Below are positions 1-56,638 of a DNA stretch of 64,000 bases, in pieces. A program made the translations under genes and the position numbers. The DNA is from Flavobacterium commune. GTDB taxonomy: Bacteria; Bacteroidota; Bacteroidia; Flavobacteriales; Flavobacteriaceae. The notes beneath the pieces were generated by a model. It was not told the origin of the DNA, did not search any database, and worked only from the letters and a program-made list of their open reading frames with translations. The number at the start of each line of letters is the position of its first letter. Position 1 is the first letter of the stretch. Location of the stretch: assembly GCF_001857965.1 (NCBI RefSeq), contig NZ_CP017774.1, positions 806,001 to 870,000 of the forward strand, given 5' to 3'.

Positions 1-279
1 TGCTGCCGCCGTATTTCTTGGTGTCGATTCTACAATATCCAGATAAGGCGTATTCCTTTTTTCTAAAATCTTTCTGCTCAAATGGCAGTTATCTACATTC
101 CCTACCACGATTACCTTATCGGCAATATCACTATTGCGTTCTACAGTCAATTCAAATAGGGACTTGCCTTCAAAAATTTCCAAATATTGCTTAGGTTGGC
201 TTTTACGTGATAAAGGCCATAAACGACTTCCTATTCCTCCTGTAAGGATTACGTGTATGATTGTGTGGGTTTTATTCAT
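1..279 (-). CDS. manC: Mannose-1-phosphate guanylyltransferase, N-terminal part (runs off window)
   Basis: Only the first 93 codons are inside the window; the rest lies beyond the left edge. The enzyme makes GDP-mannose from mannose-1-phosphate and GTP, a precursor for surface polysaccharides. Residues 14-33 carry the nucleotidyltransferase signature GGIGSRLWPLSRKSQPKQYL, including the RLWPxSR and PKQ parts that bind nucleotide and metal. The ATG at 279 gives a start 14 residues before this motif, normal for the family. It is the last visible gene of the exopolysaccharide locus and is separated from the upstream tviB-like gene by a 287-bp spacer filled with heptamer repeats. The short fragment cannot show whether a C-terminal isomerase domain is present. 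Confidence 0.88.
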   Translation of the reverse strand, partial: MNKTHTIIHVILTGGIGSRLWPLSRKSQPKQYLEIFEGKSLFELTVERNSDIADKVIVVGNVDNCHLSRKILEKRNTPYLDIVESTPRNTAAA

Positions 280-284
280 TTCTC

Positions 285-560
285 TGTTGTCAGTTGAGAG
301 TTTTCAGTTATTGGTTGTGTGTTATCGGTTGTTAAAAAATAGTAGTCGATTAAAAACAACCTTTTTATCTCATATCTTATTTTAAAGTTTTACACCTCCC
401 TAACCCTCCTCAAGGAGGGAATTTGTTTTGTATAATCTGGACGAATTCCCCTCTTGAAATCGAAGACTCAACGATTCCTAATAAAAATATTAAATAGAGT
501 TAGAGGGGTTAGGGCTGTGTTGTCGAATTACTAAAAACAGACAACCGAAAACAGACAACT
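285..560. repeat. Paired inverted heptamer arrays filling the tviB-manC spacer
   Basis: Seven consecutive 7-mers of form NGTTNTC occupy 285-333 on the plus strand. Four 7-mers of the same form occupy 530-557 on the minus strand, so the two arrays are inverted. Between them is a small palindrome, CCCTCCTCAAGGAGGG (403-418). The left array ends 6 nt from the manC start codon and the right array starts 7 nt after the tviB-like stop codon. No ORF in the spacer looks coding. The function is unknown. Confidence 0.7.
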
Positions 561-566
561 ATTATA

Positions 567-4245: not shown

Positions 4246-4293
4246 TATTTTATTTTCTATTATGTATCGAGTCATGAAATCTAAGCGCAACAG

Positions 4294-4377
4294 TAACTTC
4301 TAACTTCTAACCTCTAACTTCTAACTTCTAACTTCTAACTTCCAACTTCTAACTTCCAACTTCTGACTTCTAACTTC
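4294..4377 (-). repeat. Perfect-register 12 x 7-bp tandem repeat (GAAGTTA)
   Basis: Twelve adjacent heptamers, TAACTTC on the plus strand (GAAGTTA in the mRNA sense). Eight copies are exact and the other four differ at one position. The array begins inside the stop codon of the epimerase gene and ends 48 nt before the ugd start. It has no spacers, so it is not a CRISPR. The same 7-mer follows rarA at 41766-41793 in the same orientation relative to its upstream gene. Confidence 0.9.
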
Positions 4378-5359
4378 ATTTCAAATTATTCCAATACCAA
4401 TCTACCGCAATCCTAAGTCCTTCCTGCAAAGAATACTCCGGATTGTACCCTAACAAATCTTTTGCCTTATCAATACTCGCTAATGAATGCGGAATATCTC
4501 CGGCTCTATTGGGTCCGTAAACAACTGTTACATCTGCAATTTTAGCATCGTAAACACTCAAATATTGTTTTAAATAGCCAACCAAATCATTCAGCGTATT
4601 TCTGTCTCCATAAGCGGTGTTGTAAACCGTATTGACCGCTTCAATTTTATCTGTCGAAATTGCCAATTCATTCATTTGAATTACATTATCAATATAAGTA
4701 AAATCACGTGAGTAATTCCCATCACCATTGATAGTAATGCTTTCGTGATTCATTAATTGCATTACAAATTTTGGAATTACTGCCGCATAAGCGCCATTAG
4801 GATCTTGTTTTCTTCCAAAAACATTAAAATAACGCAAACCTACTGTTTCTATTCCATACGTCTTACTGAAAATTTCAGCATACAACTCGTTTACATATTT
4901 AGTAATCGCATAAGGCGAAAGTGGTTTACCGATAACATCTTCTACTTTTGGCAATCCTACTGAATCTCCATAAGTTGAAGAACTGGCGGCATACACAAAG
5001 CGTTTTACTTTGCCCTCTGTAGCTGCCTGTAACATATTCAAAAAACCCGAAACATTAACATCATTAGTCGTAATCGGATCATTGATAGAACGCGGAACCG
5101 AACCCAAAGCCGCCTGATGCAACACATAATCAACACCCTGAACCGCTTTTTTACAATCTTCGAAATTTCGAATATCACCTTCGATTAAAAGAAAATCAGG
5201 ATTATCAATACAGGCTTTCAAATTATGACGGTGACCTGTGGCAAAATTATCGAGACAAATCACCTTATTGCCTTTGGACAAAAAATATTCACACAGATTA
5301 GAACCTATAAATCCTGCTCCTCCGGTAATTAAAATGGTATATTTTGTTATTTCTCTCAC
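4376..5359 (-). CDS. wbpP: WbpP/TviC-type UDP-N-acetylhexosamine 4-epimerase
   Basis: 327-aa short-chain dehydrogenase of the extended NAD-epimerase class. The NAD-binding motif is GGAGFIG (residues 13-19). The catalytic elements are AASSSTYGDS and YAITK (YxxxK). The stretch HQAALGSVPRSINDP is characteristic of the WbpP/TviC/CapI branch, which interconverts UDP-GlcNAc and UDP-GalNAc. Residue-level substrate choice cannot be settled by eye. It is 20 bp after wzc and followed directly by the heptamer array and ugd. Together with the TviB-like dehydrogenase it would give UDP-GalNAcA. Confidence 0.85.
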   Translation of the reverse strand: MREITKYTILITGGAGFIGSNLCEYFLSKGNKVICLDNFATGHRHNLKACIDNPDFLLIEGDIRNFEDCKKAVQGVDYVLHQAALGSVPRSINDPITTNDVNVSGFLNMLQAATEGKVKRFVYAASSSTYGDSVGLPKVEDVIGKPLSPYAITKYVNELYAEIFSKTYGIETVGLRYFNVFGRKQDPNGAYAAVIPKFVMQLMNHESITINGDGNYSRDFTYIDNVIQMNELAISTDKIEAVNTVYNTAYGDRNTLNDLVGYLKQYLSVYDAKIADVTVVYGPNRAGDIPHSLASIDKAKDLLGYNPEYSLQEGLRIAVDWYWNNLK

Positions 5360-5379: not shown

Positions 5380-7833
5380 TTAGACTTTTCTAATTTTCTT
5401 CATTATTTTTTTCAAAACATTCTTTGGTTTTTCCTCTTCATGATAACCGTTAGAATAATCTCCGTAACCATAGCCATAGCCGTACCCATAAGCAGATCCA
5501 TACTTGGCTTTATTTTCAAATCCATTCAAAATAATACTCACATTATTCATTTCTCCACGTTTAACCCTGTTATTCAATAACGGAATCATTTCTTTCTTAG
5601 TAATATTTTGCCTTACTATATACAAAGTAACATCAGCATATTGCCCTAACTCCAAAGAATCCGAAACCAAACCAACAGGAGGAGTATCTAAAATAATGTA
5701 ATCGTAATTCTTTTTTAACTCCTCAATCAACTCTGCCATAGCTTCACCAATAATCAACTCCGAAGGATTAGGCGGAACCGGCCCTGAAAGAATCACATCC
5801 AGATAAGGAATTGAGGTTGTATTGACTATTTGGTCTAAACTTTTTTGTTTAATCAAATAATTAACCACACCGACATCATTGGTCAAATTAAATTCCTGAG
5901 ACAATTTTGGTTTCCTCAAATCCAAACCAACAATTACTGTCTTCTTTTCGCTTAAAGCAAAAACCGTAGCGATATTAATCGAACAAAATGTCTTTCCTTC
6001 ACCACTTACCGAAGAAGTTATCATAAGGGTTTTAGCTCCTTCAACATGCTGCCTTTTATACAAAAACTGTAAAGACGAGCGAATGGCTCTAAAAGATTCA
6101 GATAAAGCCGATTTAGGCTTATCAAAAACCGCCAATTCCCCATTTTCCTTATACACACCTACAACTCCTATTAACGGAATTTGAGTTTGCTTGCTTACAT
6201 CTTCTGCGTTTTGGACCGAATTATTGATAAAAAAGAGTACAAAAATAAAAAGCAACGGAATTAAGATTCCCAGAAAAAGTGCCGATACATAATTTACAGA
6301 AGAATTAGGTCCTATCAAGCCTCCGCCCACATCTTTGGCCGGATCGATAAAATGAATATCGGATAAATTGGCTGCTTTTACAATATCGGCTTCGCTTCTT
6401 TTTTGAAGAAAAGTGCTGTAAATATTATCACTTAAATCGTATTTCCGCTTTATTTTAACCAATTCCTGCTGATCATCAGGTAACTTTTTAATATTCCCTT
6501 CAGCCTGATTAATTTTACTGTTTATCAAACCTAAGTCAAATTGCAATGATGATTTTGCGCTAGCGATATTTTCTAACAAAACACTTTTAACAGCCTCCAT
6601 TTGATTGTCAAAATCCCGGAATATCTTATCACTTTTTACAGCATAAGCCATTTCTGAACGTTGGGTAGAAAGAGCAATCAGCTTGGAAATATTAGCTACA
6701 ATATTAGGATCTTCAATTCCGGCAACGGATGGCGCAGGAAGTCTGGAATAATCAACACTGTTTTTTAAATAGGCTTTAAGCGAATTATAATAACTTATTT
6801 TTCGAACAATAGCATCTTTTTCCACATCATATTGAAGAATTTTATCCGAAAACTTAGCTCCTCCATCTTCAATGTTTAAAACATCTTTTCCTTTCTTAAA
6901 AGACTTCAGCTCTTCTCCGGCTGTCTTTAATTGCGATTCCATAGCCACAAGAGTACTATCAATAAAAGCAATGGTATTGGTTGCAAATCGATTCTTCTTG
7001 TCCAATTGCCTTTTAATCAACATATTCACCGTTGCATTGAGATACTCTACCATTCGGGCCTTATTAGTCCCAGTTAATTTTAAACTAAGTATCGAAGCTC
7101 CTTTTTCGTCAGCACTAACGTTGATTCCTCTGTAACGGGAAACGGTACCGTCAAAGTTATTGAATCGTACAAAATACTCTTTACCCTTATAAAAACCGGG
7201 ATTGTCTTTTATTTGTAATTTCCAGTGTAAAAACGGCAACGAAACCTGTTCGCCTACTTTGTATTTCTTAACAAAATCACCTACAGCTACAGCAGTATTA
7301 CTGTACGAATTATCAGAATAAGTAATTAATGAAGCCGAATTACCTTCAAAAATAATTTTTATTTGATATTCCGATTCGCTTAAAAATTGAATAGCAATCA
7401 AAGCTCCTGAAAGCTGCCCTTTGTTTTTATCAATAGTTAGATAAAACGGAACAGCACCATAAGCATCGACCATATTGTACTTTTCCTGTACCAGATAATC
7501 AATGTAAAACTGCAATTGATCAACAACTAATTCGTTATGAGAGCGGGATTGTAAGGTGGTTAAAATGGTCTGCATCTGATCGGAAACTCCTCCCCAATTG
7601 AATGTCAAACTCGTATTAGAAGTAAACAACGGATTATTCTCTTCTTTTACCGAAATCAAAGTTCCCATTTCGTAAATTTTCTCTTTACGAATATTCACCT
7701 GATAAGCAATAGTAAATGTAATGATTAAACTAATTAAAAACCATTTCCAATAACTCAGTATTTTTATTAGCAAACCTTTAAAGTCAAAACTAACTTGGTT
7801 TTCAAAAATGGAAAAATCTTTTATATCTAACAT
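5380..7833 (-). CDS. wzc: Wzc-type polysaccharide co-polymerase and tyrosine autokinase
   Basis: 817-aa inner-membrane protein. The N-terminal Wzz domain begins with a membrane segment near residues 30-47. A long periplasmic coiled-coil part follows, with the second membrane segment near 512-535. The cytoplasmic BY-kinase domain has Walker A SSVSGEGKT (about residue 610), Walker A' GLDLRKPK and Walker B IILDTPPVG (about 714). The C-terminal tail (about 772-797) holds eight tyrosines in an SAYGYGYGYGYGDY-type cluster, the expected autophosphorylation site. Phosphorylation cycles of this tail control capsule chain export. The gene is 15 bp after the wza-like gene, the usual export pair. Confidence 0.93.
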   Translation of the reverse strand: MLDIKDFSIFENQVSFDFKGLLIKILSYWKWFLISLIITFTIAYQVNIRKEKIYEMGTLISVKEENNPLFTSNTSLTFNWGGVSDQMQTILTTLQSRSHNELVVDQLQFYIDYLVQEKYNMVDAYGAVPFYLTIDKNKGQLSGALIAIQFLSESEYQIKIIFEGNSASLITYSDNSYSNTAVAVGDFVKKYKVGEQVSLPFLHWKLQIKDNPGFYKGKEYFVRFNNFDGTVSRYRGINVSADEKGASILSLKLTGTNKARMVEYLNATVNMLIKRQLDKKNRFATNTIAFIDSTLVAMESQLKTAGEELKSFKKGKDVLNIEDGGAKFSDKILQYDVEKDAIVRKISYYNSLKAYLKNSVDYSRLPAPSVAGIEDPNIVANISKLIALSTQRSEMAYAVKSDKIFRDFDNQMEAVKSVLLENIASAKSSLQFDLGLINSKINQAEGNIKKLPDDQQELVKIKRKYDLSDNIYSTFLQKRSEADIVKAANLSDIHFIDPAKDVGGGLIGPNSSVNYVSALFLGILIPLLFIFVLFFINNSVQNAEDVSKQTQIPLIGVVGVYKENGELAVFDKPKSALSESFRAIRSSLQFLYKRQHVEGAKTLMITSSVSGEGKTFCSINIATVFALSEKKTVIVGLDLRKPKLSQEFNLTNDVGVVNYLIKQKSLDQIVNTTSIPYLDVILSGPVPPNPSELIIGEAMAELIEELKKNYDYIILDTPPVGLVSDSLELGQYADVTLYIVRQNITKKEMIPLLNNRVKRGEMNNVSIILNGFENKAKYGSAYGYGYGYGYGDYSNGYHEEEKPKNVLKKIMKKIRKV

Positions 7834-17535: not shown

Positions 17536-17585
17536 GGTAGAGATTATGAATTCAGGTCATATCCTTCGATAATCGTGATTCTACC
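17536..17585 (-). promoter_or_regulatory. Bulged hairpin in the rpsK-rpsD spacer, candidate S4 control site
   Basis: In the mRNA sense GGTAGA, then a 5-nt bulge (ATCAC), then GATTAT pair with ATAATC and TCTACC, which are contiguous. This makes a 12-bp stem with a one-sided bulge and a 21-nt loop that has its own small AGG/CCT pairing. The spacer is 88 nt where most spacers in this cluster are 2-18 nt. Assignment to S4 autoregulation is inference from position. Confidence 0.4.
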
Positions 17586-28948: not shown

Positions 28949-28991
28949 AAATATTAATTATTAATTATTAAATATAAAAACAGAACACAAT

Positions 28992-29077
28992 CGTTTAAGT
29001 GAAGCCGTTTTTAAAGTGGTGCAAAAGTATAACTTATTTACACACAAACCAAAAAAACTTTTCACTTAAACGAAGTG
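28992..29077. repeat. Inverted repeat bracketing the rplC promoter
   Basis: A perfect 12-bp inverted repeat, CGTTTAAGTGAA at 28992-29003 and TTCACTTAAACG at 29061-29072, lies on either side of the promoter in the rpsJ-rplC spacer. On the minus strand the upstream arm also forms CACTT-cgttt-AAGTG followed by AAAAGTTTTTTT, a weak terminator for the str transcript. Confidence 0.55.
29022..29053 (-). promoter_or_regulatory. Promoter of the S10 cluster before rplC (TTTG, 20 nt, TACTTTTG)
   Basis: On the minus strand TTTG (29050-29053) is followed after exactly 20 nt by the perfect -7 box TACTTTTG (29022-29029). The predicted leader to rplC is about 65 nt. rpsJ is left outside this unit, joined to fusA. 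Confidence 0.7.
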
Positions 29078-29101
29078 CTCTAATTTACTCTTGAAAAAAA
29101 C

Positions 29102-32062: not shown

Positions 32063-32081
32063 GTCTTTTTTTTAATAAAAA

Positions 32082-32174
32082 GTTATGGGGTATCCGCTAA
32101 ATGTTATGTGTTACAGATTTCTACTTACGTTTCAACCCTAACCCTTAACTCCTAACCTCTAACTCTTAACGTTT
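32082..32174. repeat. Paired inverted heptamer arrays between rpsL and rpsG
   Basis: Five adjacent 7-mers of GTTANNN type run along the plus strand at 32082-32116. Six 7-mers of AACYCYT type run at 32133-32174, which read GTTARRR on the minus strand. The arrays are therefore inverted, separated by 16 nt. Copies are degenerate but stay in exact 7-nt register. The element fills most of the spacer inside a conserved ribosomal operon. Confidence 0.65.
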
Positions 32175-32178
32175 TAAA

Positions 32179-40288: not shown

Positions 40289-40378
40289 TTATGTAACCAA
40301 AGTCAAGATAATGCTATTTTGTCAGGAATTAATTTATTTTATTTCAAAAAGAAATTAGACCACTTAACACGCACGTAT

Positions 40379-40461
40379 TTTAGCCCAGATCGAAGCGGCA
40401 TCCTTTTATCTCGTTAACCAAACGAGATAAAAGATATAGTGGAGAGCTGGAATAGCTTCAA
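40379..40461 (+). ncRNA. Structured RNA candidate resembling a recurrent Flavobacteria motif
   Basis: A perfect 13-bp hairpin (40403-40415 with 40421-40433, loop AACCA) is enclosed by conserved-looking flanks: AGCCCAGATCGAAGCGGCAT before it and GATATAGTGGAGAGCTGG plus AATAGCTTC after it. The flanks can pair with each other: CCAG (40385-40388) with CTGG (40447-40450), and AGC with GCT. From memory this flank pattern with a variable central hairpin recurs in Flavobacteriaceae intergenic DNA and may correspond to the Flavo-1 family. The strand is chosen from that remembered orientation. It ends about 25 nt before rarA. Confidence 0.5.
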
Positions 40462-41761: not shown

Positions 41762-41765
41762 GAAA

Positions 41766-41863
41766 GTTAGAAATTAGAAGTCAGAGGTTAGAAGTAAAAA
41801 AACAGATTTCAGACTAGATGATTAACATTCTTAATCTGAAATCTGAACCCGATAGCTATCGGG
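41766..41863. repeat. Heptamer array, inverted repeat and palindrome after rarA
   Basis: Four in-register 7-mers of GTTAGAA type (41766-41793) start 4 nt after the rarA stop. A perfect 11-bp inverted repeat, CAGATTTCAGA (41803-41813) with TCTGAAATCTG (41835-41845), follows; its right arm is itself two heptamers. It ends with the perfect 16-bp palindrome CCCGATAGCTATCGGG (41848-41863). The stretch separates convergent genes and could also end transcription. Confidence 0.7.
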
Positions 41864-41876
41864 ACTGAAATCTGAA

Positions 41877-48551: not shown

Positions 48552-48558
48552 TTTTTTA

Positions 48559-48695
48559 AGTGTTCAGTCATCAGTTTTTAGTATTCAGTTTCAGATTGCT
48601 CCAAATTAAAACTAAATCTTTCGACAATTTAATTCATTTTTCAATGTTCATTTTTTTAATCGCAAAAACTGCCAACTAAAAACGGGAACACTGAA
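48559..48695. repeat. Paired inverted heptamer arrays between the CNNM/CorC gene and obgE
   Basis: Five 7-mers of AGTNTTC type (48559-48593) lie on the plus strand next to the obgE start. A matching inverted group of ACTGAAT type words lies around 48668-48695, next to the stop codon of the upstream gene; one unit there has an extra base. Between them is about 75 nt of AT-rich DNA with no ORF. Confidence 0.6.
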
Positions 48696-48700
48696 TACTT

Positions 48701-56554: not shown

Positions 56555-56589
56555 AGATTACAGAACCTAGATTTCAGAATACAGATAAA

Positions 56590-56618
56590 AACCGAAGCGT
56601 TATTGCTTCGGTTTTTTT
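56590..56618 (+). terminator. Terminator after the M3 peptidase gene (also used by antiporter side)
   Basis: AACCGAAGC pairs perfectly with GCTTCGGTT around GTTATT, followed by seven T. The same 20-nt core recurs 3.8 kb away at 60394-60413. Confidence 0.88.
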
Positions 56619-56638
56619 ATATCTATTTTGCACTAATT

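Follow-up and report, generated by a model that had tools for sequence, protein, structure and literature searches.

A candidate intercistronic stem-loop with heptamer-array arms in Flavobacterium commune and its relatives

The spacer between the tviB-like and manC-like genes

The genome of Flavobacterium commune consists of one contig of 3.85 Mb, and the window analyzed here is the 64-kb stretch at its positions 806001–870000, with a GC content of 35%. The left edge of the window cuts a nucleotidyl transferase gene, of which the 5′ part is retained (1–279, minus strand; PF00483, E 2.2e-11); the name manC, given to it in a preliminary description of this DNA, presumably suits its family. The neighboring gene on the same strand (567–1868; PF03721, PF00984, and PF03720) encodes a UDP-sugar dehydrogenase of 433 aa, tviB-like in the same naming, and the nearest named match of the protein (87%) is from Flavobacterium palustre. 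The manC-like start codon lies at 277–279 and the tviB-like stop codon at 567–569. Because both genes are on the minus strand, the spacer of 280–566 is downstream of the tviB-like stop and upstream of the manC-like start. Gene edges were set by simple ORF calling or by homology to the his proteins of this genome, so some start codons may be misplaced. A search of a plasmid collection with the first 6 kb of the window returned no match.

The spacer carries two heptamer arrays. The left array (285–333, plus strand) comprises seven words that start at 285, 292, 299, 306, 313, 320, and 327, in a strict 7-nt register, and read in order TGTTGTC, AGTTGAG, AGTTTTC, AGTTATT, GGTTGTG, TGTTATC, and GGTTGTT. 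The right array (533–560, minus strand) comprises four words that read AGTTGTC, TGTTTTC, GGTTGTC, and TGTTTTT from 560 downward. The preliminary description gave seven NGTTNTC words at 285–333 and four on the opposite strand at 530–557. The register and the NGTT core hold in all words (7/7 left and 4/4 right), whereas the full NGTTNTC is exact in only 3/7 left and 3/4 right words, and the right array is shifted to 533–560. The gaps to the manC-like start and the tviB-like stop are as short as claimed, at 5 and 6 nt rather than 6–7 nt. Read along the mRNA, the G-rich right array forms the 5′ outer arm, directly past the tviB-like stop, and the C-rich left array forms the 3′ outer arm, immediately before the manC-like start. 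Between the arrays lies the small palindrome CCCTCCTCAAGGAGGG (404–419) of the preliminary description, together with an inner inverted repeat that it missed; the two plus-strand arms of this repeat, ACACCTCCCTAACCC at 392–406 and GGGTTAGGGCTGTGT at 506–520, are 15 nt long and 87% complementary; CCCTAACCC lies inside the outer arms together with them.

Seven GTT at 7-nt spacing match at 286–330 and in 0 of 100 dinucleotide shuffles of the window; the window holds five such matches, the other four inside the array at 4294–4377. The period-7 column score is 0.66 for 280–335 and 0.57 for 528–562, reached by 6/2000 and 14/2000 Markov shuffles, respectively. Long simple sequence repeats of 5–11 nt consist of tandem copies of one unit; here the 7-nt register exceeds chance, yet the unit is degenerate enough for 285–333 to escape Tandem Repeats Finder at score 30. 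Based on the predicted RNA fold, the whole intercistronic spacer (280–566, minus strand) can be read as one nested hairpin: the minus strand of 279–569 folds at −78 kcal/mol (z −5.7), and none of 200 shuffles folds equally well. The outer-arm duplex of 528–562 with 280–335 reaches −27.3 kcal/mol, equaled by 22/2000 shuffles, while the inner duplex by itself is weak evidence, with 110/2000 shuffles equally good.

The preliminary description considered the element unlike terminators, CRISPRs, or REP elements, and this assessment holds. The minus-strand outer stem closes with ..CAGAG and then runs into AAA and AUG, and not into the U tract of an intrinsic terminator; the unit is 7 nt without spacers, and not a direct repeat of at least 20 nt with unique spacers; and the words vary between spacers. 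The covariance models of Rfam 15 gave no match in the 280–566 spacer at the gathering score. The two Rfam matches in the window, a Flavo-1 RNA and an S4-Flavobacteria ribosomal leader, lie elsewhere, at 40378–40457 and 17542–17574.

At a column-score cut of 0.62, six further spacers of the window have a period-7 array (4276–4375, 28949–29101, 32063–32178, 41762–41876, 48552–48700, and 56555–56638), in agreement with the at least five proposed earlier. The array at 28949 may be due to chance, since the sequence is A/T-rich and chance arrays are expected at this cut. By column score and pattern match, a single minus-strand array of 12 GTTAGAA-type words (4294–4377) fills most of its spacer without an inverted partner, and by column score GTTAGGG/GTTAGAG-type words (32132–32178, minus strand) adjoin a stop codon. 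In the convergent spacer 41762–41876, a GTTAGAA-type array past one stop is followed by CAGATTT-type inverted words, and in 48552–48700 the array listing shows TTCAGT-type words next to the start, with words complementary to them next to the stop. The inverted design, described as frequent, is clear by eye at 41762 and 48552, whereas 4276–4375 holds a single array.

Amid the right-hand words of the 41762–41876 spacer lies a further palindrome, CCCGATAGCTATCGGG (41848–41863), which has 18 sites in the genome. At least 4 of the 16 distinct sites listed are amid heptamer words: besides the window site, these are in the stretches L169, L181, and L190 (centre) and, within 4336–4685, in L113. By eye, direct repeats of 4–6 nt lie on either side of these sites, as would be the case if small elements inserted into arrays. 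The same palindrome also occurs within the heptamer words of an Aequorivita locus.

Arrays and hairpins across the genome

The sample of this genome consisted of the window and 40 stretches of 20 kb (859,032 unmasked bases, ~859 kb), and a masked N stretch in L005 and spacers outside the stated lengths were excluded from the counts. The scan for 7-nt periodicity that the preliminary description had proposed found 30 of 456 spacers (30–1000 nt, ~859 kb) with a period-7 score of at least 0.65, compared with 5.3 expected from Markov controls; at 0.70, there were 20 compared with 2.0. Periods 8, 9, 10, and 11 reached 0.65 in 0, 1, 0, and 0 of the 456 spacers, and periods 5, 6, and 8–11 showed no clear excess over controls. 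Markov-shuffled spacers lacked the periodicity; equal periodicity in shuffled sequence, which the preliminary description had named as telling against its proposal, did not come about. Over all spacers, the mean lag-7 match is barely raised (0.322 compared with 0.313, z 5.3; lags 3, 6, and 21 are raised too), so a minor part of the spacers accounts for the signal. Because the words drift, searches for exact words overlook most arrays; TCNGTTN three times in tandem, for example, occurs at 2 places in the genome.

At a cut of 0.62, 33 spacers carry 46 arrays, 28 of these spacers being codirectional, 3 convergent, and 2 divergent. After 14 of the 46 arrays that do not adjoin a single edge were left out, 32 edge arrays remained for a count of polarity. 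Read outward from the gene edge, 27 of them have more G than C, 3 show the reverse, and 2 are ties. Array-free spacers have no G bias beside stops (68:74 and 59:63) and a milder outward G bias beside starts (103:56 and 81:55). Within a spacer, the outward bias makes the left arm G-rich and the right arm C-rich regardless of gene direction, which is expected on both strands from a palindrome with a G-rich 5′ arm. The G-rich strand running outward from both gene edges would equally suit the healing of broken DNA, in which intergenic 3′ ends are extended with G-rich words and then joined into head-to-head arrays. However, a symmetric palindrome yields the same polarity without any break, and hairpins are rare in divergent spacers, as given below; we consider end healing very unlikely.

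The edge arrays adjoin stop codons in 19 of 32 cases and start codons in 13. This distribution bears on whether a regulator of translation or an RNA-binding regulator uses the arrays as binding sites, a role proposed for the TAACTGA repeats of Beggiatoaceae. The arrays do abut starts, and in the orientation described in that work, where 12 of 14 sets in F. litoralis run forward before a start and 1 is reversed right past a stop (PMC4679880). Against it, arrays adjoin stops at least as often as starts, and words that vary from one junction or species to the next provide no fixed site; a binding-site role is quite unlikely.

The two arms of an array spacer match each other. Among 29 array spacers of this genome, the complementarity of an arm with its own partner averages 14.4, compared with 9.93 (sd 0.65) for permuted partners, and 0 of 2000 permutations reach the observed value. 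The G-arm-first polarity is not general to hairpins, since among those with z<−3 in the same sample, the ratio of G-arm first to C-arm first is 20:14 for codirectional spacers and 6:13 for convergent ones.

Hairpins depend on gene orientation. In spacers of 40–300 nt, scored on the better strand against 30 shuffles, hairpins with z<−3 occur in 89/257 codirectional, 43/52 convergent, and 2/50 divergent spacers (codirectional against divergent, p 2e-6). The convergent hairpins are probably mostly terminators, because 29 of 42 array-free ones have a U tract. The arrays themselves show no significant depletion in the divergent spacers of the sample (25/328 compared with 2/65, p 0.28). Codirectional array spacers have z<−2 in 17 of 25 cases, and a U tract follows 5 of these 17 hairpins. 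In the his operons of relatives, described below, it follows 4 of 72 hairpins when the sequence is read only to the start codon; most hairpins of the his operons do not qualify as intrinsic terminators.

The 23S–5S spacer is a surely transcribed place that has the same array build. In all five rrn operons of the genome it contains GTTATGAGTTTTGAGTTATAAGTTAAGAG with complementary words behind (in L058 at about 5979–6058). Across 24 genomes of the genus including this one, with one locus per genome, 20 of these spacers fold with z<−2, and in 11, whose words vary, period 7 is significant at p<0.05; this count leaves out 6 of 30 loci, of which 2 had short upstream sequence, 3 had partial 5S matches, and 1 was the second copy from a genome.

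The his operon and other Bacteroidota

The his operon was taken from this genome and 20 further genomes of the genus. Its seven junctions could be cut out in 143 of 147 cases; leaving aside the other 4 and 37 of the 143 that fall outside 40–260 nt, 106 spacers were analyzed. In our genome, the his operon contains spacers filled with arrays, while 17 of the 143 junctions are compact (0–15 nt), in some with the ATG directly behind the stop. At a four-row score of at least 0.7, period-7 arrays are present in 51 of 106 spacers, compared with 1.2 expected; period 8 reaches this score in 10 (0.5 expected), period 6 in 2 (2.0), and period 9 in 0 (0.4). None of the 21 species lacks an array in its his operon. 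The absence of arrays from relatives, which the preliminary description had held against its own proposal, was thus not found, though not every relative sampled carries them. The words change from species to species: at hisB–hisH, they include GTTGGAAG, GTTTAAA, GTTGATA, GTTTCAAG, AAGCTTA, and the 8-nt GACTTTAA.

The his spacers fold with z<−2 in 72/106 and z<−3 in 51/106 cases. Since array-free spacers often fold too (z<−2 in 27/45, and in 38/51 of the period-7 spacers), arrays appear to be one route among several to a hairpin. With both halves considered, 33 of the 51 period-7 spacers have the G-rich arm first, 1 has the C-rich arm first, and 17 are mixed; the 10 period-8 spacers include 7 G-arm first and 1 C-arm first, and the 45 array-free spacers include 8 of each.

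When right halves were dealt among species within each junction (n=98), the complementarity of arms with their own partners averaged 14.0, compared with 9.90 (sd 0.38), and 0 of 2000 permutations reached the own-partner mean; this is not a p-value, because species are not independent, and the permutation, which treats them as exchangeable, has its mean raised by like-worded relatives. The advantage of the own partner is clear at 4 of 7 junctions: hisG–hisD (16.0 vs. 8.6), hisD–hisC (14.9 vs. 11.7), hisB–hisH (16.6 vs. 9.2), and hisA–hisF (14.4 vs. 8.6). At hisH–hisA (7.8 vs. 7.0), hisF–hisIE (9.2 vs. 8.5), and hisC–hisB (18.4 vs. 17.9), the own partner is hardly better than that of another species.

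To compare relatives directly, 124 ordered pairs of spacers with 70–97% identity were each set against 60 simulations, in which an equal number and kind of changes fell at random places, and the resulting fold was compared with that of the real relative. A median of 1.7% of simulations folded as well as the real relative; the matching fraction was below 10% in 91/124 pairs and above 90% in 0/124. The pairs share species and are not independent, and retention is weakest in the hisH–hisA pairs. Gaps between aligned relatives are mostly 1–5 nt with no excess at 7, so these species differ mainly in other ways than by whole words gained or lost; the missing excess also argues against simple unit slippage as the chief kind of change. 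The comparison of orthologous spacers called for in the preliminary description thus shows compact and filled junctions, changing words, and often kept pairing, without an excess of 7-nt gaps. Collectively, because the words change while pairing is often kept, these comparisons suggest that the fold rather than the spelling matters.

Several features of single his junctions were observed. The hisB–hisH spacer (L071 16828–16909 compared with L201) is 95% identical to that of G443, whereas the flanking DNA is 83% and 81% identical, and the nearer relatives L194–L196 carry different words. This identity may reflect spacer exchange or strong constraint. In L194, the TAG stop of hisD is apparently supplied by an array word, with a hisD–hisC gap of 24 nt relative to L193. 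At hisC–hisB, some species have extra ORFs; the ORF in this genome (L071 15233–15655) encodes a DUF2846 protein, and the one in L195 (4027–4638) lies between AACCCTGATAGGGTT-type palindromes. The latter ORF appeared transposase-like by eye, a reading rejected for want of a Pfam match at E 0.001.

The 95% identity at hisB–hisH and the compact and filled states of orthologous junctions could point to a mobile palindromic element, akin to REP or MITE sequences, that a Y1 (RAYT-like) transposase might move, and the genome has three Y1_Tnp matches. However, the words differ from spacer to spacer, and the three Y1_Tnp loci have no period-7 array (top scores 0.49–0.56, within Markov controls). For both reasons, membership in the REP/RAYT class was rejected, and a mobile element in general is unlikely.

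Across the phylum, six GTT at 7-nt spacing occur in 104/247 Bacteroidota genomes (57/121 genera). The 8-nt spacing, used as a second control, matches in 38/247 genomes (28/121 genera) and is an imperfect control, because 8-nt arrays are themselves real; the backward-read control is unclean and matches in many of the same genomes, because TTG-type words also form arrays. AAGTTAG repeated three times was found in 10/296 Bacteroidota genomes including our own, with single control matches in 3 genomes. In 182 spacers of 40–500 nt from 80 named loci, a score of at least 0.65 was reached by 13 period-7 spacers (1.0 expected) and 11 period-8 spacers (0.3 expected), the 7-nt type mostly in Flavobacterium and the 8-nt type mostly in Salinimicrobium and Salegentibacter; one Aequorivita locus has both. 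The Salegentibacter and Salinimicrobium loci L092, L098, and L102 show 8-nt arrays of AATTAACC- and GAGTCCCC-type words, some similarly inverted. Arrays are few in 80-kb samples of five other genomes, with period-7 spacers in 2/32, 1/41, 0/48, 3/52, and 0/48, compared with 0.3, 1.0, 0.3, 1.0, and 0.0 expected.

The existence of 8-nt arrays with the same drift, together with arrays that have no partner, fits the strongest of the alternatives, in which the arrays are neutral simple repeats made by slippage and decayed by mutation, and the hairpins are a functionless by-product of template switching. An earlier survey cited in PMC4679880, moreover, found heptanucleotide units to be the commonest long repeats in the majority of its genomes. 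In contrast, neutral repeats would not readily account for hairpins that depend on gene orientation, a polarity of 33 to 1 in array spacers, pairing kept between relatives, or placement in the 23S–5S spacer. We regard neutrality as possible but doubtful.

A predicted stem-loop with drifting words and its known counterparts

At the tviB–manC junction and elsewhere, the feature is, by computation, a stem-loop with heptamer-array arms, and its fold is kept at several junctions. We lean, with some reserve, toward reading it as a transcribed intercistronic stem-loop that likely serves as RNA punctuation, its stems written and renewed by tandem words whose spelling drifts while the pairing lasts. 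A G-rich array directly behind the upstream stop would pair with a C-rich array directly before the next start, with the inner palindrome closing the structure, and the same build would recur at other junctions of the genome and genus. The stem-loop would act in RNA, most likely as punctuation between cistrons rather than as an ordinary intrinsic terminator, either as an exonuclease barrier or as a site of processing and insulation. Slippage may lengthen one arm, and template switching between the arms may then copy the lengthened arm into its partner; by this route, spelling would drift and pairing would last.

The stem-loop reading draws on the periodicity, the arm complementarity, the retention of folds, the fold z scores, the array polarity, the orientation context, the 23S–5S spacers, the compact and filled junctions, and published template switching. 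Counted against it are partnerless arrays such as that of 4276–4375, the junctions hisH–hisA, hisF–hisIE, and hisC–hisB, the facts that hairpins are not peculiar to arrays and have no general polarity, the lack of array depletion in divergent spacers, the U tracts in 5 of 17 hairpins, the lack of a 7-nt gap excess, and the few arrays in the five 80-kb samples. The suggestion of an RNA structure class in the preliminary description nevertheless has good computational support, in that the arrays are predicted to pair together and the pairing appears often kept in relatives.

More tentatively, and with somewhat less confidence than doubt, we propose a Bacteroidota class of intercistronic and rRNA-operon stem-loops in which fold, place, and polarity would be conserved and sequence left free, a 7- to 8-nt mutational step would write and repair the arms, and a functional RNA element would outlive full replacement of its sequence. 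If this is true, a layer of operon punctuation in Bacteroidota escapes homology searches, since its members have no more than the fold and the 7-nt rhythm in common. The spacers would also offer a natural system for watching DNA-level copying make and maintain RNA stems among close species, and might suggest how the scattered heptamer arrays known from Beggiatoaceae, cyanobacteria, and Bacteroidetes can be understood in structural terms.

Several known systems share part of this build. The short tandemly repeated repetitive (STRR) heptamers of cyanobacteria have a 7-nt unit and are mostly intergenic, as here. Intercistronic stem-loops such as REP hairpins protect upstream mRNA and, like the present feature, place a stable stem past a stop inside operons; REP elements are one conserved sequence in many copies, whereas here the fold is common and the words vary.

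Intergenic heptamer arrays as such are already known. In MacGregor 2015 (PMC4679880), TAACTGA/TCAGTTA direct repeats have five Bacteroidetes among their carriers, relatives with shorter, repeat-free spacers were noted, and no particular structure was predicted for the repeats themselves. Both systems have tandem heptamers adjoining starts, and one F. litoralis set is reversed past a stop; the arrays here lie in matching orientations, with 5 nt separating one from the manC-like start and 6 nt separating the other from the tviB-like stop. TCAGTTA, the complement of TAACTGA, occurs once in the left array (304–310) with differing neighboring words, and two or more exact tandem copies were not found in 285–333. 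The claim of an undescribed repeat family therefore fails for heptamer arrays in themselves. It may still hold for arrays that are inverted and paired, for words that turn over while pairing is kept, for the arm polarity, and for the occurrence in rRNA operons, of which our literature search, partial in coverage and hence weak evidence, found no account. The TAACTGA work follows one exact word, while here the words drift and differ by junction; and the TAACTGA repeats have no predicted structure, while the inverted arrays here pair into a stem (PMC4679880).

For the proposed origin of the arms, the nearest counterpart is template switching, which makes and maintains RNA hairpins (PMC8794818). 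To judge from its abstract and headings, that study concerns RNA genes (the headings name rRNA), and the abstract has no 7-nt periodicity. As in those hairpins, the arms here would be copied from each other, and pairing would outlive the change of sequence.
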